Source: Patescibacteria group bacterium
GTDB lineage: Bacteria > Patescibacteriota > Gracilibacteria > UM-FILTER-43-11
Direction: 5' to 3'
DNA length: 11,729 nucleotides
Assembly: GCA_018814945.1 (NCBI GenBank)
Contig: JAHIYT010000151.1
Coordinates: forward strand, 1-11,729
The notes under the pieces are model-generated. The model was not told where the DNA came from. It saw nothing but the letters and a program-made list of their open reading frames with translations, and searched no databases. The position numbers were made by a program, and so were the translations under genes. Within the stretch, counting starts at the first letter, position 1. Each line of letters opens with the position of its first letter. This document shows positions 1,606-10,784 of the stretch, in pieces.

Positions 1606-4600
1606 TTAGTTACACTTTTTGTCGGCATAATTAAGCCACATGGGTATTTCTACCTTTATTAGGCTTATGGATAAGTTCTTAGGTATTGTCAGGCCAAACG
1701 CCTGGAATAATTCACTTATTGTTATTTCACCTTCCTCTACATCCATAGATTCTTGCATTCCCCAGTTTTCCTGAAAAGATATCACATCAAGAATATTAAT
1801 GCCTGTAATACCATCTATATTACCTTCATCCCATGATTCAGGGTTGTTTTTAAGTAAATTACCCCAAGCTATCAAATCATTTTTATTAATCTCGTTGTCA
1901 GATTCATCGAAGTTTCCGTATTTAAAGTGACGATCAAATTCCAATGCAATATTGGCTGTATAATTGTTGTTTGTTAGTTTAGCGTTATTTATTTCCAGAG
2001 TTGCAATTTTTGGCAGGTAATATTTCTCATCTGCGAGCTCTATTCCAATTATATAGGATGTTCCAGCTTTGAAAGAACCTACAGAAACACTAGCTTCTCC
2101 TAATAAATTGGTTGTGGTCTGATAGGTTTCATTAGCTTTATCAATACCGATCCCAGATAAGCTTCCTAAGCTAGAAGGGTTTAAATCAGAAAATGAAGAT
2201 GGTTCAGCGAGCCCCGTAAATGTGTCCGATTTAAATTGTGATAGCTCGCTTACTTCATATTTATTTATTGTAAGATTTGCTCCATGGCTGTTATCTCCAA
2301 AATACTCTTCATTAATCTGGAGAATTAATTCTCTTTCATCTTCAGTTAATTCATCAATACTATTTTTACTAAGTAAACTATCACTTAATCCAAGTTTGCT
2401 AATGTCTTCAAGTACAGTCTCCTCAATCTCAATTTGCTCAACTAAATTTGCAATGATGGGTTCCATAAATTTATCTATAATATCTTCTGAATCTAAATTA
2501 CCATCTGCGCTTAAGGAGAGAAGAATCATGAGAGGGGAGATGATATCTGCCCTCATAGCTTCAATTTTGTGTCTTAATGCATAATTATCTTCTGCGTAAC
2601 ATTCTAATACATATTCAAGAGCTAATTCACTGTTTCTGGCATTTCTGAATTCATTCTGAATTTCCTTACACATACGCCTACTACCAGCTATATTGCTATT
2701 ATCATTTGTTTCAATTAATTCATGAACTCTATCCATTATTAATTGATCATAGGCGCCTTTAATTTTTATATTCAAATCCAATGTTACATCTATCTCAGTA
2801 CCCTTTGCTACAACAGGGTCTATTGCGGCTTTGCCACTATTGCCTATGGCAGTTCCACAATCTGTCTCATTAATTAAATAATAGTTATAGTATTTAGCTT
2901 TATTTGTCTTATTTGCTGGGACGGTTTTATCTGTGTAACTAGTGTTATATGTATTAGTTACTGTGTGAATTTTAGTTCCATCTCTGTATATATGAATAAC
3001 TCCGCCAGTGTTCGCGTTTAAAAAATAATTTCTGTAATAGTCTGTAAATGGAGTAAGATTGCTTCCTGCTTCCTTAAGAGTGCTTTCCAGACTCAACAAA
3101 TCATTGATAAACTTCATGATAATGTTGTCGGTCGATGCTTTTAATGAAATATCTTTCCTTGCGTTAGTTATTATAGATAGTATTGCTTCTGATTGACTGT
3201 TATTACATGTAGAATCATTCGCATTTGTTAGCCCAAGGCGTTCCAACCTATTGTAATAATAGCTACTTAATTCTTTAATATTTGAAATTGCGCCCCTCGC
3301 GTATGTTGTAAAAATATTTGAAAGTCTATTTTTTTCACTTCCGATTTTTGGATTTTGGTCAAAGTAGCTGAGCAAAATGGACACTTTTACATCTGTGTTA
3401 ACGTCCTGAATATTTGTCCAACTTAAATTGACTGCTGGTTTTCCGTCAATAGTACTTACGGGGAGAGTTTTAGATAAATTTAAAGTTATTGGTGTTGTGG
3501 TGCAGGTCTCTTGCCTACTTGAACCACCACTTACTACATATTCCAGAGCTCCGGCTTCACCTGTAGTTGAACTGTCTGGCCTGGTTATTCCTAAATAATC
3601 CGTTGTAGGTGTGTTGGCATGAAGCGAAGCTACTCTATATATGGTGTATGCAGAGGAGGTTAAAGCAAAATCTGCACCAGCCGCAGTCCAATTAGCTCCT
3701 CCGCCTGAATTTGTAAATGGATCATTACTTGTTACCGCAAAATTGTTTCCGGTTCCAAGGTCGGCTGCGGTTTGGTTAGTTAACGCAGGTCTTCCAACAG
3801 CACTTCCGTTAACAGTAATGTCTGCCTCATAATAATAAGTATTTTCTGCGCCACCATTGTCATTATAAACAAGGTTCTGTTTAACTATTAAGGTGCCGGT
3901 AGGGGAGGTATTGGATAAGAAATCTATACGGCTTAGTCCTATATCTCCCAACCCAACATTTCCCGCAGAAGTGTCCGGATTAAAAAAGTCACAATTATTA
4001 TATAGTGTGTTATTAATAACCTCAGCGCCGTTTACTTCGCCAATATATATTCCACCACAGCCAGCGACGTTATCGGTGTTATTAGTAATTATATTATTTT
4101 GGATTGATATATTACTAGAGGCATAATCAAATCCCAATGTACCTGAATAAGCTTCAATAGCTACAATGCCAACTACCATGTTGTGAATGTAATTATTTTT
4201 GGCAATTATATTATCTCCTATGAGTATCAAACCACCTTCGACTGATGATCCATATATCTCAAATCCATCAATGGTTATATTGTTACCGACTACGAGAATA
4301 TTGGCATCGCTAGGTCCAGCATTAATTATTGGATTGATGTTCCATGGTTGAATATGGATTTCCGTAGATGTAACGGTAACTGCAAACAATGCTGGTGCCA
4401 CCTGCTCTGCAGTTGTCGAAGTACCTTCAACATAAACATTTACTGGCTCTTTTGGATCTGTAGATATTATTGTCTGAAATCCTGCTTCTGAAAAAAGATT
4501 TGTGATGCTATCGCAGGGGTTAGTTGTTGTTGACAGGCCACAGTCTCCAGGTACTCCTGAGTCATAATCCACATAATAATTGGCAGGTGGTACGATAGGA

Positions 4601-7600
4601 TCTTGATATTCAATTGCGCCAGCTTCTCCTATTACATATGGTCTTGTCGTGCCTAGGTAGTCGCTTGATGGTGTATTGCCATGAAGCGATCCTATTTGAT
4701 AGGTGACATAAGTGGATGCGGTTAAGGCAAAGTCGACACCTGCATCAGCCCAATCTGTTGTTGGGCCAGAAGAATCTAAAAATGGATCACTCGCGGCTAT
4801 AAAGTTATTACCGGTTCCATGGTCTGCAGCAGTCTGTCCGGTAAGAATCCCTCCCGGATCTGCACTATTGATATTTTCCCATCCTCCAACTCCATCTGGC
4901 ACGTTATAGTAATAGGTATTTGCTCCTCCTCCAAGAGTATTGTATACAAGGTTCTGTTTAACAGTTGTGTTTGTTGGAGCCGATATACCAAAAGAATCAG
5001 TTATTTCTGTTACGGTTATTTCTCCTAATTCCAATGGTTGTCCTATAGTATCCAGACCCCCATCAGCAAAATTATTACAGTTGTTATATGCGGTATTATT
5101 GATAATGGATATATTGTCGGCTGGACCAGTAACCCAGATTCCACCACAGGTGTCTACCGCTCCACCAAAGTTTGTTGTACCTCTATTATTGATAAAAATA
5201 TTATTTGCTATTATGTTGTTGTCAAAAGTAGGGCCACCACCACCGGTATCATCATGCCCCCATATACCTACAGATGTATCATGTATATAGTTATTTCGAA
5301 TGTTTAGACCGTTTCCATATGTATAAATACCAATACTTGTTGCATCACCAGCACCAGCAACTGTTACATCACCATATATTTCAAAATCCTGCACGTTTAC
5401 ACTGGCTGTACTGTTAGCTGCAAGAAGAAGTACTTCACCATTCATTGGTCTTGCTGTTCTAGCGTCTAATATTGGGTTTGTACCAGATGGGTCTTTTAGA
5501 ATATTTATGGTAGCGTTTGTTCCCCCTGACCATCCAAACCTATCTATACAATCACCACCAGGAGTACAGCCAACAATACTAGTCGTTTTCTCACCTGTTA
5601 CATAAACATTTATTGTTGTTGCTGTGAGCAAATTGGCGGTAAAAATACCTTTTTGCCTTAATTCATCCAGACTTGCACAAGGGTCGCTTACTGAACAATC
5701 AACACTAGCACCCGGGGTTGCCGCATAATCAACATAAAAATTAACTGTAGCTGATCCGGTTATATTATGTGTAACCGTTACACCTGCTGATTCTTCTAAT
5801 ATATCTACCTGCCTAAGTGCCCATGCGGCATTAGCACCGTTTAAGCCACTTATGTTGGTCAGATTAATAGTGTTGTTGTCCGCAAAACAGTTTGTACAAC
5901 TACAATCTTGCGTTGTTGGTTCGCAGGCTGAACCGCCATTTCCATTGGCGTTTGTGCCATCGTTAAGAAATGAAATATCGCGAATAATACCACCATTGTC
6001 ACTAAGAGAGATATTTGTTAGATTAATTAAATCTGCTATTGGGGCAAAATCTGAATCTGTCAGGGAAAGCATCCCACAACATAGGTTTATTGATCTAAGG
6101 TTAGGAAATTCACTCACGATTCTAGTTAAGTCAGCAGGAGATAATTGAGTATTATAAAGGAGTATATTAGGGTTTGACCCTAAATTATTTAAGAGTGGAT
6201 AGTTTACTACATTTAATGCGTCAAAATCTGTTATACCAGTGTTTCCACCAATGTTATAAAGGCTAACAGCTGATAGATTTGGCACAGTGCTTATATCGGT
6301 AATGCTATTATTCCAGACACCTAAGTGGAATAGACTCGCTAATCCATCTAAACTACTTATATCTACTATATTGTTATTACCGATACCTAAGTCCAAAAGA
6401 TTTGGAGTATTAGTTGTATTAATTTTACTAATGTCGCTATAAGTGTTACCGGAGCAATCAAAATATTGAAGACTGTTTAAATGCTCGATACCGTTAATGC
6501 TTGCTATTGATAAGCTGTCGCAAGCAAGACTTGTTACGGCAATCGCATCTGTGTAAGCTACAGCTCCAGGTGTTCCCACCTCGGCATCATTGGATACGCA
6601 ACTTAAAAAGTTAGGGTCATTAAAGTCAGCGGTTACATTTAGGTTGTGCGTAACGGTTGCTCCAGCTCCTTGTAATGCTAATACATTGGTATATGCCGCC
6701 GGGGCATTTGAGTTATTAAGACCAGCATTATTAGTTATTGTAATTGAGTTACCACTAGCAAAATCGGCAAGGTTGGCGTTACCTGAGCCAAGAGCATTTA
6801 AACTAGTAATGCCGTTATTATTGCCGATATCAGTACTTACAAGGTTATCTAATCCTGCTATGGCGTTAAAGTTTGTCATGGCATTGTTTCCATCAAAATC
6901 AATGTCCGTTAGGGCTATCATATTTTGTATATTGAGCTGAGCAAACATTGCATCGGTTAGGTTATTTTGATTTATGTGCAATATAGTAAGGCCATTCATA
7001 CCACTGAGCGGTGAAAGGTTGGTAATGCTATGCTTTCCACAGCTAGGCCCTATTCTTAAATCTGTTAAATTAGGGAAATTCGCATTCGTAACACTTGCGA
7101 TACTAGTATTGTCAATGTCGTTACACCATATATGTAGTAAATTTAAATTACTATGTCCTATAAGTGGGCTTAGATCGTTTACATCATTACCGCCTATGCC
7201 GAGGCCTATAATATTACTTAGACTGGCCAGTGGAGTAATATCGGTTACGCTATTATTCATCATATCTATGCTAGTAATTGCTGTTGCTGCCGCAATTGGG
7301 GCAAAACCGGCATCATTAATACTGTTATTATCGATTTTTATTCCGACTAGACTGGTGAAGTGTTGTATACCGGCCAAGCTGGTTACACCCTGGTTATTGC
7401 ATACTATTTCCCCGGAAAATGCAGCAGCAGCAGCATCATCAACTGAACCAGGTGTTCCCAAGGTAGCAGAAGCACAAGCTAAAAAGTTTGCATCAGTAAA
7501 ATCACCAGTTACATCTGCGGCTTGCACTTCTGGTATTTTTTCTTCGAAATTGTATGTCAGTATTGCAATAGAAAAAATTGCTATCGCAAAAACCGGCAAT

Positions 7601-7635
7601 AAATACTTTACATATTTTTTACTCTGTTGATTCAT
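1606..7635 (-). CDS. Giant secreted LRR / parallel beta-helix / dockerin-like surface protein (2009 aa)
   Basis: This is an exported multidomain protein, probably for surface adhesion or polysaccharide contact; that role is inferred from architecture, and no catalytic site is evident. The N-terminus (KK, then a hydrophobic stretch at about 10-27, with VQA before ADV) is a signal peptide likely cut after A39. Residues 44-333 and 337-627 are two internalin-like leucine-rich-repeat modules with recurring NN-I-DI-PL turns. Residues about 632-1011 and 1019-1366 are two right-handed beta-helix modules with NNYIH and NNIITNN rungs, each closing with DFALT...DYLG-TRP...GEAGA-EY, a C-terminal signature common in secreted beta-helix proteins. 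Residues 1380-1590 look like an Fn3 domain with a helical insert. Residues 1610-1785 are helical and charged. Residues 1790-1905 are a beta domain, followed by a dockerin-like pair (1905-1959) and a short tail. No LPXTG motif or C-terminal membrane anchor is seen. It starts 67 bases after pyrC but has its own candidate promoter. Confidence 0.9.
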   Translation of the reverse strand: MNQQSKKYVKYLLPVFAIAIFSIAILTYNFEEKIPEVQAADVTGDFTDANFLACASATLGTPGSVDDAAAAAFSGEIVCNNQGVTSLAGIQHFTSLVGIKIDNNSINDAGFAPIAAATAITSIDMMNNSVTDITPLASLSNIIGLGIGGNDVNDLSPLIGHSNLNLLHIWCNDIDNTSIASVTNANFPNLTDLRIGPSCGKHSITNLSPLSGMNGLTILHINQNNLTDAMFAQLNIQNMIALTDIDFDGNNAMTNFNAIAGLDNLVSTDIGNNNGITSLNALGSGNANLADFASGNSITITNNAGLNNSNAPAAYTNVLALQGAGATVTHNLNVTADFNDPNFLSCVSNDAEVGTPGAVAYTDAIAVTSLACDSLSIASINGIEHLNSLQYFDCSGNTYSDISKINTTNTPNLLDLGIGNNNIVDISSLDGLASLFHLGVWNNSITDISTVPNLSAVSLYNIGGNTGITDFDALNVVNYPLLNNLGSNPNILLYNTQLSPADLTRIVSEFPNLRSINLCCGMLSLTDSDFAPIADLINLTNISLSDNGGIIRDISFLNDGTNANGNGGSACEPTTQDCSCTNCFADNNTINLTNISGLNGANAAWALRQVDILEESAGVTVTHNITGSATVNFYVDYAATPGASVDCSVSDPCASLDELRQKGIFTANLLTATTINVYVTGEKTTSIVGCTPGGDCIDRFGWSGGTNATINILKDPSGTNPILDARTARPMNGEVLLLAANSTASVNVQDFEIYGDVTVAGAGDATSIGIYTYGNGLNIRNNYIHDTSVGIWGHDDTGGGGPTFDNNIIANNIFINNRGTTNFGGAVDTCGGIWVTGPADNISIINNTAYNNCNNFADGGLDTIGQPLELGEITVTEITDSFGISAPTNTTVKQNLVYNTLGGGANTYYYNVPDGVGGWENINSADPGGILTGQTAADHGTGNNFIAASDPFLDSSGPTTDWADAGVDFALTASTYVTYQIGSLHGNTPSSDYLGTTRPYVIGEAGAIEYQDPIVPPANYYVDYDSGVPGDCGLSTTTNPCDSITNLFSEAGFQTIISTDPKEPVNVYVEGTSTTAEQVAPALFAVTVTSTEIHIQPWNINPIINAGPSDANILVVGNNITIDGFEIYGSSVEGGLILIGDNIIAKNNYIHNMVVGIVAIEAYSGTLGFDYASSNISIQNNIITNNTDNVAGCGGIYIGEVNGAEVINNTLYNNCDFFNPDTSAGNVGLGDIGLSRIDFLSNTSPTGTLIVKQNLVYNDNGGAENTYYYEADITVNGSAVGRPALTNQTAADLGTGNNFAVTSNDPFTNSGGGANWTAAGADFALTSSAYTIYRVASLHANTPTTDYLGITRPDSSTTGEAGALEYVVSGGSSRQETCTTTPITLNLSKTLPVSTIDGKPAVNLSWTNIQDVNTDVKVSILLSYFDQNPKIGSEKNRLSNIFTTYARGAISNIKELSSYYYNRLERLGLTNANDSTCNNSQSEAILSIITNARKDISLKASTDNIIMKFINDLLSLESTLKEAGSNLTPFTDYYRNYFLNANTGGVIHIYRDGTKIHTVTNTYNTSYTDKTVPANKTNKAKYYNYYLINETDCGTAIGNSGKAAIDPVVAKGTEIDVTLDLNIKIKGAYDQLIMDRVHELIETNDNSNIAGSRRMCKEIQNEFRNARNSELALEYVLECYAEDNYALRHKIEAMRADIISPLMILLSLSADGNLDSEDIIDKFMEPIIANLVEQIEIEETVLEDISKLGLSDSLLSKNSIDELTEDERELILQINEEYFGDNSHGANLTINKYEVSELSQFKSDTFTGLAEPSSFSDLNPSSLGSLSGIGIDKANETYQTTTNLLGEASVSVGSFKAGTSYIIGIELADEKYYLPKIATLEINNAKLTNNNYTANIALEFDRHFKYGNFDESDNEINKNDLIAWGNLLKNNPESWDEGNIDGITGINILDVISFQENWGMQESMDVEEGEITISELFQAFGLTIPKNLSISLIKVEIPMWLNYADKKCN
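1759..1923 (-). other. Dockerin-like EF-hand pair (residues 1905-1959)
   Basis: Two repeats match the dockerin type I outline G-D-x-N-x-D-x-x-x-N-x-x-D-L. The first is GNFDESDNEINKNDL, one residue longer than usual. The second is GNIDGITGINILDV, with the expected length and the N9 and D12 positions, but with Asn for D1 and Ile for D5. The preceding beta-rich segment (about 1845-1905, GSFKAGTSYIIGIEL...YYLPK) resembles the domain that often comes before dockerins in secreted proteins. Calcium binding by the second loop is doubtful. Confidence 0.6.
3538..4581 (-). repeat. Parallel beta-helix module 2 (residues about 1019-1366)
   Basis: It begins NYYVDY, then C...NPCDSI and VNVYVEG, with rungs ITIDGFEIYG, NNYIHNM and NNIITNN, and ends QTAADLGTGNNF...DFALT...DYLGITRP...GEAGALEY. 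It is shorter than module 1, mainly between the header and the first rungs. The closing parts of the two genes are still alignable as DNA (around 3590-3700 and 4650-4750). Confidence 0.75.
4603..5742 (-). repeat. Parallel beta-helix module 1 (residues about 632-1011)
   Basis: The module begins NFYVDY, then D-C...DPC-SL and INVYV-G, and runs through PbH1-like rungs (NNYIHDTSVGI, NNIIANNIFINN, NISIINNTAYNN). It ends QTAAD-GTGNNF...DFALT...DYLGTTRP...GEAGAIEY. Nearly every landmark recurs in module 2, so the two arose by tandem duplication. The fold is typical of pectate-lyase-like proteins, but I see no conserved catalytic residues to support lyase activity. Confidence 0.75.
5755..6627 (-). repeat. 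LRR module 2 (residues 337-627)
   Basis: The header DFNDPNFLSCVSNDAEVGTPG and the tail GVTVTHN match module 1. The repeats are similar but more divergent. A Cys-rich loop (CEPTTQDCSCTNC, about 571-583) sits between the late repeats and is absent from module 1; it may form disulphides outside the cell. Confidence 0.72.
6637..7506 (-). repeat. LRR module 1 (residues 44-333)
   Basis: The module opens with DFTDANFLACASATLGTPG and closes with GATVTHN; module 2 opens and closes the same way. About nine or ten internalin-type repeats of roughly 22 residues lie between, with Asn ladders such as DNNSI, MNNSV and NQNNL. At the DNA level both modules share CCAGGTGTTCCCA (plus strand 7448-7460 and 6566-6578), which supports duplication of a whole module. 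Confidence 0.75.
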
Positions 7636-7702: not shown

Positions 7703-8971
7703 TTATTTATAAGTTGCACCTCTGTAAATCGTGACTTTTGGCCAACCCTTGAGCTTTTTACCGTGAAAAGGTGTGTTTTTACCCTTTGACACAAATTCAT
7801 TTTTATTGACTATTTCTTCAGTTTCTAAATCTATAACCGCAATATTTGCCGTAAAACCCTCCTGAATTCTACCGAGTGGGAGCTTTGCCAGAGTAGCTGG
7901 TTTTAGTGTCATTAATTCAATAACTTTTATTAAATCTATTCCCTGATTTTTATGTAGTTCAGTAATTGAAGCTGGGAGTGATACCTCTAATTCAGAAAAG
8001 CCAAATGCTGATTTACTTATGTCTTCAGTTTTATCTTTTTCAGCGTGTGGTGCATGATCCGTAACAATTGCATCAACTGTTCCATCTTTTACTCCTTCTA
8101 TTAAAGCCATCCTATCAACTTCTGTTCGGAGTGGGGGATTTACTTTAGCCTGAGATCCGGAGGCCAGAACTTCATCTTCCGTTAAACAAAAATGATGCGG
8201 CGTAACGTCACAGGTAATTAAATCTGATCCCTGTTTAGCTTTGCGAACTAAATCAATAGATTCTTTTGTGCTCAGATGGGTGAAATGTGCGCGAGCTCCA
8301 GTTTTTAGAGCTAGGCGAATACCTCTTTCCACCGCCTTCCATTCTTTCTCGTTTGGTTGACCGGGCAAATTTAGCTCTTTACTGACTTTACCTTCGTTTA
8401 CAACTCCGTTTGGCGCAATGCTCATAACTTCGGGGTGTGTCATAACAATAAGCCCCAGATTTCTTGCTTTTTTATAGGCTTCTTCTAGGAGCTCTTCGTC
8501 ATCAATATCAAATCCATCATCGGTTATAAATTTCATTCCAAAGTCTAGATAAACATCTATTTCCGCAAGTCTTTCGCCCATTAGTTTATGTGTAATTGCG
8601 CCGACTATATGAACGTCTACACGTGCATTTTTAATTAGTTCGAGATATCTTTGAATGTTTTCAATACAGTCTAGTTTTGGGCTTGTGTTAGGCATGCAGA
8701 ATACGGTAGTAACTCCGCCTTTTCTTACTGCCTTTGTCCCAGTTTCCACAGTTTCCTTATTCGCCTGATCCATATCCCGAAGATGGACATGAAGATCTAT
8801 GACCCCCGGCATTACCACCTTATTTGTTGCATCAATAATATTGGCACCTAAAATATCGTTACATATTCCAACTTTCGTAATTTTATCATCGACTATCAAA
8901 ACATCAGTCACTTCGTCCAGTTTCGATTCAGGATCGATGACGCGTCCGTTCTTTATTAGGATTTTGCTCAT
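7703..8971 (-). CDS. pyrC: Dihydroorotase, type I (422 aa)
   Basis: It catalyses the reversible cyclisation of carbamoyl aspartate to dihydroorotate, step 3 of de novo pyrimidine synthesis, in the cytoplasm. It is an amidohydrolase TIM barrel. Visible metal and catalytic residues, numbered from the chosen start, are H61 and H63 in DLHVHLR, D151/D152 in ITDDGF, H179 in MTHPEV, H232 in THLST, and D305 in VTDHAPH. These positions and the 422-aa length match class I bacterial dihydroorotases closely. The family's usual REPG after the HxH motif reads RDMD here, and HCED reads HPEV. I chose ATG 8971 because MSKILIKNGRVIDPESKL is the expected N-terminus; the frame stays open upstream to a TTG at 9046, but those 25 codons are a tandem repeat. 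pyrB lies 82 bases upstream on the same strand, so the two are probably one operon. A class I ancestor could also be an inactive homologue, but the intact ligands argue against that. Confidence 0.95.
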   Translation of the reverse strand: MSKILIKNGRVIDPESKLDEVTDVLIVDDKITKVGICNDILGANIIDATNKVVMPGVIDLHVHLRDMDQANKETVETGTKAVRKGGVTTVFCMPNTSPKLDCIENIQRYLELIKNARVDVHIVGAITHKLMGERLAEIDVYLDFGMKFITDDGFDIDDEELLEEAYKKARNLGLIVMTHPEVMSIAPNGVVNEGKVSKELNLPGQPNEKEWKAVERGIRLALKTGARAHFTHLSTKESIDLVRKAKQGSDLITCDVTPHHFCLTEDEVLASGSQAKVNPPLRTEVDRMALIEGVKDGTVDAIVTDHAPHAEKDKTEDISKSAFGFSELEVSLPASITELHKNQGIDLIKVIELMTLKPATLAKLPLGRIQEGFTANIAVIDLETEEIVNKNEFVSKGKNTPFHGKKLKGWPKVTIYRGATYK

Positions 8972-9053: not shown

Positions 9054-9968
9054 CTATTGGTTATAATTTTTCCAAAGTGTTTTCAAAAGTGCCATTCTCA
9101 TATATATTCCATTTTCAGATTCTCGAAAGTAAGCTGCTTGTTCCATCATATCCACTTCCATTGTAATTTCATCTACACGTGGTAATGGATGAAGCACTCT
9201 CATAGTCGGTTTTCCAAGGCGGACGACATCTGAAGTAAGTATGTATGAGCCCTTTAGAAAATAATATTCTTCCAGATTCTCAAATCTTTCCTGCTGAATA
9301 CGAGTCATGTATAGAATATCCATTTCAGGTACATGCTTGTTTAGCTCGCTGTCTTCCATATATTCGATTCCTTTTTCCTTAAGCATATCCAGATAAAAAT
9401 TTGGAATCTTTAATTGACTTGGGCTAATGAAGATAATTTTCTTTATCTTATACAAGGCTAGTATATATAGGAGCGAATGAACTGTTCGTCCAAACTTAAG
9501 ATCTCCAACAAAACCTATTGTTAGCCCATCTATTCCGCCCATTTCACGGTTAATTGTGTAGATATCCAAAAGTGCTTGCGTTGGATGCTGATTAGCACCA
9601 TCACCAGCATTAAGAAAAGGTTTATCAGTAAATTGAACTGCTTCCGCTGCAGCACCTTCTTTTGGATGGCGCATGACCAGAATGTCAGCATATTTTTCTA
9701 TAACCCTGATTGTATCGTTAAGGGTTTCACCCTTTTTCATTGATGTACTGCTGGCATTTGCAACAGTAATAAGGCGACCACCAAGCCTGTGTACTGCGGA
9801 TTCAAAAGATAGGCGAGTACGAGTACTTGGTTCAAAGAAAAGAGAGGCAACCATAATCCCATCGAGGTCTTTGGTGCGTTTTGTGCGAAGATCTTCAGCC
9901 TCCTTTATTAGGTAGTCTACCTCTTCACGTGCTAGGTCTGCAGAAGTAGTTAATTGAGTTCGGTTCAT
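9054..9968 (-). CDS. pyrB: Aspartate carbamoyltransferase catalytic chain (304 aa)
   Basis: It joins carbamoyl phosphate and L-aspartate to give carbamoyl aspartate, step 2 of pyrimidine synthesis, normally as a cytoplasmic trimer. Seen in order: FFEPSTRTRLSFE (carbamoyl-phosphate loop, about 44-56), the SSTSMKKGE mobile loop (about 73-81), HPKEGAA, GDGANQHPTQALLD (HPTQ motif), GDLKFGRTVHSL (start of the aspartate domain), an MTRIQ-ER segment, and HPLPRVDEI. Length is normal for the family. The ATG at 9968 is chosen because the frame begins with MNRTQLTTSADL and no better start lies upstream; no Shine-Dalgarno sequence is seen. No pyrI regulatory chain and no pyrR are in the window. The 5' end is duplicated 113 bp upstream in damaged form. 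Function is clear; regulation is unknown. Confidence 0.97.
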   Translation of the reverse strand: MNRTQLTTSADLAREEVDYLIKEAEDLRTKRTKDLDGIMVASLFFEPSTRTRLSFESAVHRLGGRLITVANASSTSMKKGETLNDTIRVIEKYADILVMRHPKEGAAAEAVQFTDKPFLNAGDGANQHPTQALLDIYTINREMGGIDGLTIGFVGDLKFGRTVHSLLYILALYKIKKIIFISPSQLKIPNFYLDMLKEKGIEYMEDSELNKHVPEMDILYMTRIQQERFENLEEYYFLKGSYILTSDVVRLGKPTMRVLHPLPRVDEITMEVDMMEQAAYFRESENGIYMRMALLKTLWKNYNQ

Positions 9969-10020
9969 AATTGTTTATGATTAGGTTTTATTAAGTTTTT
10001 TACATGTCACGCTCTTACGA

Positions 10021-10081
10021 AAAATAATCAACTTTCCGCCTCAGGCGGATCAGCTGACGTAGTAAGTTGAGTACGTTCCAT
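10021..10081 (-). pseudogene. Broken second copy of the pyrB 5' end, or a 17-codon pyrB leader ORF
   Basis: From ATG 10081 the frame reads MERTQLTTSADPPEAES and stops at TGA 10030-10028; the pyrB protein starts MNRTQLTTSADLAREEVDY. Over the first 11 codons 9 of 33 bases differ, 7 of them at third positions, and only one amino acid changes. The match stops at a palindrome (10035-10049). After it the sequence encodes V-D-Y again in another frame (10032-10024), matching pyrB residues 17-19. The upstream bases AAACC...TAAACA...ATG also match those before pyrB. This supports a duplicated, then disrupted, pyrB start. A translated leader peptide controlling pyrB, as the enterobacterial pyrBI operon has, cannot be ruled out. 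Confidence 0.7.
10035..10049. repeat. 15-bp GC-rich palindrome inside the pyrB 5' copy
   Basis: TCCGCCTCAGGCGGA has perfect 7-bp arms around one base. It is strikingly GC-rich against its AT-rich surroundings and occurs once in the window. It begins at the last base of the GAT codon where homology to pyrB ends. The RNA could form a 5-bp stem with a TGA loop. A U-rich stretch follows only about ten bases later, so it is not a canonical terminator. Confidence 0.65.
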
Positions 10082-10109
10082 GATGTTTAGGGTTTAAATT
10101 TTCTAAACT

Positions 10110-10139
10110 ATTTTACTATTATTTTTTATGAAATGTAAA
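10110..10139 (-). promoter_or_regulatory. Candidate promoter of the pyrB-pyrC operon
   Basis: TTTACA (10139-10134) and TAAAAT (10115-10110) are 18 bases apart on the minus strand. The predicted start near 10103 is about 22 bases before the ATG of the leader ORF, leaving an mRNA leader of about 135 bases before pyrB. Both hexamers are near-consensus only, in AT-rich DNA. The 9969-10217 region holds this promoter, the pyrB copy and the divergent promoter of the small genes; I see no other element in it. Confidence 0.45.
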
Positions 10140-10412: not shown

Positions 10413-10784
10413 ATGTCTGGAAATTTAGAAGCTTCATATGAGGATAGATCGGTTGCTAGAAGAATCCTGACTGAAGATATTATTGGAGAAGGTCGTACAG
10501 TTGATCAATATGGAATAATGGGATGGGCTAGGGACCATTTTCGTGAGTTACTTAGAAGACATGGAAATCTTAGATATGAAGATGCTATAACACTTGCATT
10601 GGAAGATATGGATGATATTGCTCTTGAAGATGTAGTTTTTGCTAGAAATTGTTTGTTGGAGTTAATGCAGACAACTGATAGGACTTTGGATGATATGGGT
10701 TTAGAACATGATTCCAAAAATATAATGAGAAAAGTTATTGCAAAAATCCATGGTCATAATGAAGGAACTACAATAGCTGCATAA
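10413..10784 (+). CDS. Acidic helical hypothetical protein (123 aa), start MSGNL
   Basis: No known family is recognised. The chain is almost entirely helix-forming and charged: SVARRILTEDII (13-24), GWARDHFRELLRRHG (37-51), YEDAITLALEDMDDIALEDVVFARNCLLELM (55-85) and SKNIMRKVIAKIHGH (101-115). It has no membrane segment, signal peptide or metal motif, and one Cys (C80). The first helix is a plausible scaffold for binding a partner, but nothing indicates which. The first five residues, MSGNL, mirror MSGEL of the preceding gene, and the ATG contexts are alike, so the two may be paralogues or share a translation signal. Obg starts 56 bases downstream with no terminator between, so read-through into obg is possible. 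Confidence 0.8.
   Translation: MSGNLEASYEDRSVARRILTEDIIGEGRTVDQYGIMGWARDHFRELLRRHGNLRYEDAITLALEDMDDIALEDVVFARNCLLELMQTTDRTLDDMGLEHDSKNIMRKVIAKIHGHNEGTTIAA

Follow-up and report, generated by a model that had tools for sequence, protein, structure and literature searches.

Introduction

Many bacteria place their pyr operons under PyrR control, and attenuators of the trp, his and thr type rely on amino-acid leader peptides. The closest described counterpart of the locus reported here is the pyrL-pyrBI system of E. coli. The pyrL leader of E. coli K-12 has 44 codons and contains a stem and a run of eight T inside the ORF, with the T-run placed 107 nt after the ATG and read as Phe-Phe. The pyrL terminator is reported to be prevented by a coupled ribosome (PMC10135430; PMC5021804), termination takes place at high UTP and the ribosome rescues read-through at low UTP (PMC10135430), and the pause in pyrL is independent of NusA (PMC9291695).

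Our search of the open-access literature, outside which subscription journals mostly lie, returned no paper that links Patescibacteria with attenuation of pyrB or a pyrimidine attenuator, or the Candidate Phyla Radiation with transcription attenuation. Similarly, the titles and abstract openings of articles on intragenic terminators, attenuators and leader peptides mention nothing like an element inside pyrB. One terminator survey considered intergenic regions and regions with short ORFs (PMC2965389), and because of this restriction such an approach would pass over an element located within pyrB.

Here we describe a pyrB locus in which the start of the gene occurs twice in tandem. We consider it probable, judging by features of the sequence, that the upstream copy is part of a translation-coupled transcription attenuator of pyrB resembling that of pyrL-pyrBI, with a leader that originated in a tandem duplication of pyrB's own start.

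Results

Genomic context of the pyrB locus

The window, meaning the whole stretch of DNA analysed, is one entire contig (G000:C88) of 11,729 bp from a Peregrinibacteria-like metagenome genome, whose assembly is 89% complete with 3.9% contamination and consists of 187 contigs. On its minus strand it carries an intact pyrB (9054..9968), which encodes an aspartate carbamoyltransferase of 304 aa with the domains PF02729 and PF00185. The gene pyrC (7703..8971, minus strand), encoding a dihydroorotase (Pfam Amidohydro_1/DHOase), lies 3' of pyrB in the same direction. The PyrB protein shares 91% identity over 304 residues with those of L002 and L003. The order pyrB to pyrC in the same direction is kept in all fifteen loci compared (L001-L015); in L014, pyrC is found about 1.3 kb further downstream of pyrB and is truncated by the end of the locus.

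Upstream of the pyrB leader, obgE is oriented divergently. A 123-aa ORF (10413-10784, plus strand) lies between the two; it matches no Pfam family, and tblastn gave no hit to it in those loci of relatives that were searched. The pyrB-obgE gap exceeds that of several relatives. Two further ORFs of the window are on the minus strand. One, of 2009 aa (1606-7635), has a hydrophobic segment at its start and what by eye are repeat-like stretches of N, L and I, and is perhaps a large surface protein. The other, of 117 aa (1126-1479), has CPEC and CHRC motifs that look zinc-binding by eye and no Pfam match.

The pyrB start occurs twice as a 113-bp tandem repeat

A sequence-only reading of this DNA had pointed to two ATG-led segments on the minus strand, one at 9968 encoding MNRTQLTTSAD and one at 10081 encoding MERTQLTTSAD. 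Both are present, the first being the start of the true pyrB and the second that of the leader. As that reading had counted, seven of the eleven shared codons differ, six of them silently, leaving one amino-acid difference; at the level of bases there are nine differences in 33, seven of which fall at third positions. The near-synonymous character of the divergence, also claimed there, is borne out by simulation, since placing nine changes at random gave at most one amino-acid change in none of 20,000 trials.

The similarity extends beyond the stretch first noted to a unit of 113 bases, 10116-10004 against 10003-9891, which aligns end to end. The first copy (10004..10116, minus strand) comprises the -10 region, 5' UTR, leader ORF, hairpin and tail, and the second (9891..10003, minus strand) comprises the 5' UTR and the first 26 codons of pyrB. 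Their global alignment scores 86, compared with a mean of 27.1 (sd 7.6) and a maximum of 54 in 2000 shuffles. The 11 codons are significant on their own (0/2000 shuffles), as is the 5' UTR part (0/2000), where the match of the upstream bases had likewise been noticed from the sequence alone. Past codon 11, the tail of the upstream copy shows little similarity to the local pyrB (p 0.07 in the alignment of the 113-bp unit). When this tail was locally aligned with 16 family pyrB starts, using 500 shuffles per start, p was 0.002 for four and 0.02-0.26 for the other 12, among them the window's own pyrB (p 0.126). Relative to pyrB, the upstream copy contains a net one-base insertion; in the frame shifted by it, AAGTTGATT in the second arm of the hairpin provides the stop TGA at the hairpin end. 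The same insertion is the source of the V-D-Y that the earlier reading saw, correctly, in another frame after the break.

The upstream copy combines a promoter-like site, a putative leader ORF and a terminator-like hairpin

The promoter-like site (10110..10139, minus strand), with a -35 TTTACA, an 18-nt spacer and a -10 TAAAAT, scores 10/12 matches in a consensus scan and lies 28 nt before the leader ATG. The predicted leader ORF (10028..10081, minus strand) spans 17 codons, MERTQLTTSADPPEAES, ends in TGA and contains no run of one codon; its match with pyrB, almost only with silent differences, covers codons 1-11. Overlapping this ORF and lying about 58 nt upstream of pyrB is a terminator-like hairpin (10027..10058, minus strand), which is predicted to fold with an outer stem of 7 pairs, an internal loop GA/A, an inner stem of 6 pairs (TCCGCC/GGCGGA) and a loop TGA. 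Its minimum free energy is -18.0 kcal/mol (z -4.61), and 0/200 shuffles are as stable. A T-rich tail, TTATTTTT (10020..10027, minus strand), follows directly 3' of the hairpin and is interrupted by one A; in a terminator scan, its 5-T part follows the -18.0 kcal/mol stem.

At several inner pairs the leader differs from its relatives on both sides with pairing kept, and the leader hairpin and that of L011 (-18.7) are the most stable of those folded. An RNA model (R1), built from 16 rows that include the leader, matches the leader with an E value of 5.6e-9. We also note that the frame-shifted part of the leader ORF reads D-P-P-E around codons 12-13 (10043-10048, minus strand), a Pro-Pro pair within the hairpin that could slow a ribosome there.

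The downstream copy has lost the T-run and the promoter-like site. Codons 7-22 of the window's pyrB (9904..9950, minus strand), the site of the in-gene hairpin and T-run of relatives, contain no T-run, the longest in the tail stretch being a single T. They read Tyr19-Leu20 compared with Phe-Phe or Phe-Leu in 15 others, among which Phe19 (codon TTT) is invariant; Tyr is found only in the window. A fold of -9.3 kcal/mol in a shifted register persists here (19/200 shuffles as stable), and we therefore claim the loss of the T-run and promoter-like site only, not of the stem. The best -35/-10 pair for the pyrB ATG is a poor match 8 nt away, and the minus-strand consensus scan finds no promoter site between 10110 and 9968. 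The window's pyrB still matches R1, at 52 bits the lowest of the pyrB-linked hits. The duplication, the predicted hairpins and their conservation, and the division of features between the copies can be read from the sequence itself.

A partial duplicate with a frame break, present beside pyrB in one genome only and carrying a tail that aligns only weakly with the local gene, might also be the decaying remnant of a pyrB start that was once duplicated, with a hairpin that is leftover or accidental. We regard this as unlikely, because the nine base differences in 11 codons are accompanied by one amino-acid difference, the hairpin is among the most stable although its inner-stem bases differ from those of relatives on both sides, and the promoter-like site precedes the leader and not pyrB. 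Selection would, moreover, be expected to purge a strong terminator that stood unrelieved between the promoter and pyrB. The sequence-only reading had presented a broken copy and a selected leader as alternatives; the sequence favours both together, namely a tandem duplicate whose frame was broken and which was kept as a leader. A join of two strain variants of the pyrB start during assembly might be suspected in a metagenome genome with the completeness, contamination and contig number given above, but it is extremely unlikely in view of the 113-bp tandem layout, the 9/33 differing bases, the hairpin re-formed by paired changes and a second copy devoid of T-run and promoter-like site.

Relatives carry the same element inside pyrB

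Sixteen of the 18 family genomes have a PyrB match, and a readable start is available from 15 genomes other than the window's; L021, L022 and L025 have no usable pyrB start, and L045 and L037-L039 are outside the examined set. In the family's pyrB a terminator-like hairpin occupies codons 7-18 and is followed by a T-run, the whole element spanning approximately codons 7-20. The T-run, of 5-7 T at codons 18-20, is found in all 15 non-window starts. Within the first 75 nt, a hairpin with T-run reaches -10 kcal/mol or lower in 12/15 and -7 or lower in 14/15, with L005 the one that fails. The weak hairpins are those of L005 (-5.0, p 0.36), L041 (-7.1, p 0.70) and L012 (-7.7, p 0.08), and in L008-L010 the stem is formed with a shifted 5' arm. 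The best-scoring promoter-like site, whose position is given without shuffle control, lies 21-30 nt before the pyrB ATG in 14 of the 15 relatives and at 63 nt in L005. By eye, the 5' part of the transcripts has no consistent fold and no conserved antiterminator fold.

Hairpin and T-run are absent at all 30 starts compared from outside this set, namely 18 outgroup or paralogous carbamoyltransferase starts (some of the paralogs coming from family genomes) and 12 further class members, taken from loci returned among 147 class genomes with a match. As a background, 214 ORFs of 150 aa or more, drawn from parts of two family genomes, were scored from their first ATGs, in regions that overlap by 2 kb; four qualify at -10 kcal/mol, two of which are pyrB, and ten at -7.

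Two observations concern class members outside the family. In L100, a terminator-like site (-12.2 kcal/mol, T8) lies no more than 150 nt before pyrB, and it may be the terminator of the upstream gene or another attenuator. The pyrB of G056, G177, G251, G263 and other class genomes contains many in-frame TGA, and the family's pyrB matches contain none; in-frame TGA is expected in genomes that read it as an amino acid, as is known among Gracilibacteria.

Codon and folding tests point to selection on the RNA

Among 13 pyrB genes, identity at synonymous codons peaks at the element. The 12 highest-ranking 15-codon windows all begin at codons 5-16, where the synonymous excess reaches 0.217 compared with a gene median of 0.030 and a 95th percentile of 0.134. 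A sliding codon-shuffle terminator score for 13 genes likewise ranks starts at codons 6-9 at the top of 289 positions (mean z 1.95-2.41), the mean over all positions being 0.03 (sd 0.40) and the next non-overlapping peak 0.90. When codons were shuffled with protein and codon usage kept, hairpin energy gave a Fisher value of 1.8e-9 when 14 genomes were pooled and of 1.1e-6 for a set of seven lineages that we picked ourselves; singly, p is below 0.05 in only 8/15 non-window genomes. For the T-run by itself, the excess over codon usage is marginal (Fisher 0.006; 0.07 over the seven lineages). These pooled synonymous, sliding and codon-shuffle tests leave out L001, which is the window, and L003, a near-copy of L002. 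L041, a partial gene with one extra start residue that was read from its second codon, is included in the codon-shuffle test and left out of the other two. Joint hairpin-and-T p values are uncalibrated in their joint tails, and we therefore rely on hairpin energy alone together with the sliding z.

The in-gene hairpin and T-run might be chance products of codon usage and of the encoded residues D-L-T-R-E-E-V-D-F-F. F-F or F-L is itself a protein feature, the T-run alone has codon-shuffle p values of 0.02-0.59 per genome in the 15 non-window genomes, and hairpin p exceeds 0.05 in seven of 15. However, the pooled hairpin-energy result was obtained with exactly these properties held constant, and the element ranks first among the 289 positions of the gene and coincides with the maximum of synonymous conservation, which makes this explanation quite improbable.

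Of ten relatives folded against dinucleotide shuffles, six have at most 10/200 shuffles as stable, and L005, L012, L015 and L041 are not unusual (35-105/200). Standard pairs fill 81.9% of the pair cells in the RNA alignment, a proportion that 5/500 shuffles reach, compared with 32-52% in slid controls. Double-changed cells and the covariation score are each reached by 12/500 shuffles and double-changed pairs by 102/500, so that covariation support for the hairpin is modest. A stem at codons 7-18 could slow early translation, and the hairpin might accordingly act on pyrB translation or RNA stability instead of termination. This is very doubtful given that in 15/15 relatives the T-run comes immediately after the stem region, that the leader has a T-rich tail and that the hairpin of the window ends another ORF about 58 nt upstream of pyrB.

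The element is restricted to one family and split in one genome

R1 has hits at the pyrB start in 16/18 family genomes, with at most 150 candidates scored per genome. Under stricter filters, by which weak hits can be lost, it has none in the 270 non-family genomes among 288 genomes of the class and two in a phylum sample of 379, both in members of the family (G000 and G001). Two R1 copies beside pyrB occur in the window genome only; none of the other 15 family genomes with a hit has a second one beside pyrB, and no second leader was found elsewhere in the window's 89%-complete genome. A second R1 hit in G010 (contig 87, E 0.053) falls in a locus with no match to pyrB, pyrC or obgE and was taken as chance. 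We further considered a dispersed, genome-wide palindromic repeat; the genome contains TCCGCCTNAGGCGGA just twice, in the leader and on C58, and it is therefore not a repeat of this kind.

The split into leader and pyrB is thus seen in one genome of one genus, in an incomplete metagenome assembly. In the PyrB tree the window groups with L002, L003, L004 and L007 (support 92/95); L005 and L006 join them in a larger clade of seven members (96/99). L002, L003, L004 and L007 carry the in-gene element, and this placement suggests that the split is most simply the derived state. The earlier reading had proposed a displaced older pyrB or an allele swapped by transfer as the origin of the second start. 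With a 113-bp tandem repeat, a supported grouping in the PyrB tree taken by itself and no further copy, neither is needed, though a transfer may have occurred. It had also stated that absence of the copy from relatives would refute a leader peptide; the second copy beside pyrB is indeed absent in 15/15, but this does not refute a leader, because in these relatives the same RNA element lies inside pyrB.

Discussion

A proposed model for attenuation by the pyrB start

We lean towards a model in which attenuation by a self-leader is family-wide, the first 20 codons of pyrB acting as leader and intrinsic terminator, and in which a tandem duplication in the window divided this arrangement into a leader and a relaxed enzyme gene. 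The promoters, the termination, the control by the ribosome and the supply of UTP/CTP as signal are putative parts of this model. In relatives, the first ~20 pyrB codons would be enzyme N-terminus and leader at once, laid out as promoter, ~20-nt 5' UTR, ATG, hairpin at codons 7-18 and T-run at codons 18-20. An RNA polymerase running ahead of the first ribosome would allow the hairpin to form, and transcription would stop after ~80 nt. If the polymerase were slowed, for example when pyrimidine nucleotides are short, the ribosome would catch up and cover the hairpin, and pyrB-pyrC would be transcribed.

In the lineage of the window, the 113-bp tandem duplication would have produced two such starts. 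The upstream copy would then have acquired the net one-base insertion, with a stop at the hairpin end, and kept its promoter, hairpin and T-rich tail. The downstream copy would have stayed in frame as pyrB, with promoter and T-run lost and a weaker fold in another register.

If this model is true, one set of bases at the pyrB start serves as protein code and as attenuator throughout a Patescibacteria family, which bears on metabolic regulation in small-genome bacteria where no PyrR is found. It would also make the origin of a leader peptide testable, with the in-gene attenuator first and the separate leader later, and would point to one way in which leader peptides such as pyrL could come about. 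Duplication would here have separated regulatory RNA from protein code, with the released codon visible as the change of Phe19 to Tyr.

Comparison with known attenuators

Attenuators controlled by PyrR resemble this locus in having a terminator ahead of pyr genes. They differ in that no PyrR passes the cut-off here and no Rfam family matches: the PyrR model NF003549 is over its cut-off of 138 in 0/18 family genomes (best 34 bits) compared with 6/14 control genomes, and the region 9850-10250 matches no Rfam entry at E <= 1. Attenuation by a protein or ligand, PyrR-like or riboswitch, in place of the ribosome would be in line with how common PyrR control of pyr operons is in bacteria. Weak, sub-cut-off matches to the PyrR model do occur in 14/18 family genomes, as other phosphoribosyltransferases would give. 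Set against these null searches and a 5' transcript part that by eye has no consistent fold, such control is highly improbable. Attenuators of the trp, his and thr type share with the ribosome-controlled attenuation proposed here a short ORF that overlaps the terminator, but the locus has no run of pathway end-product codons and, by eye, no consistent competing fold.

The likeness to E. coli pyrL-pyrBI is closer. In both, a leader ORF, putative in the window, runs through an intrinsic terminator or a hairpin resembling one just before pyrB with a T-run after the stem, and the reading of the T-run as Phe-Phe in pyrL recurs in many of the family's pyrB genes. By analogy, control by the ribosome may be of the same kind. 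By a crude measure, the T fraction before the hairpin is 0.21 in the leader (first 48 nt) compared with 0.34 in E. coli pyrL (first 88 nt), and it is 0.10-0.25 in the family's pyrB; with so little T ahead of the hairpin, no UTP pause region of the pyrL type can be made out. The adjoining gene also differs, pyrB being followed here by pyrC and not by pyrI. The leader peptide of the window is a copy of the PyrB N-terminus, whereas E. coli pyrL is by eye unlike the start of E. coli PyrB, and among the 15 relatives pyrB itself takes the place of the 'leader'. Attenuation by a leader that was recruited from the start of the gene it controls would be a new form of leader-peptide attenuation.
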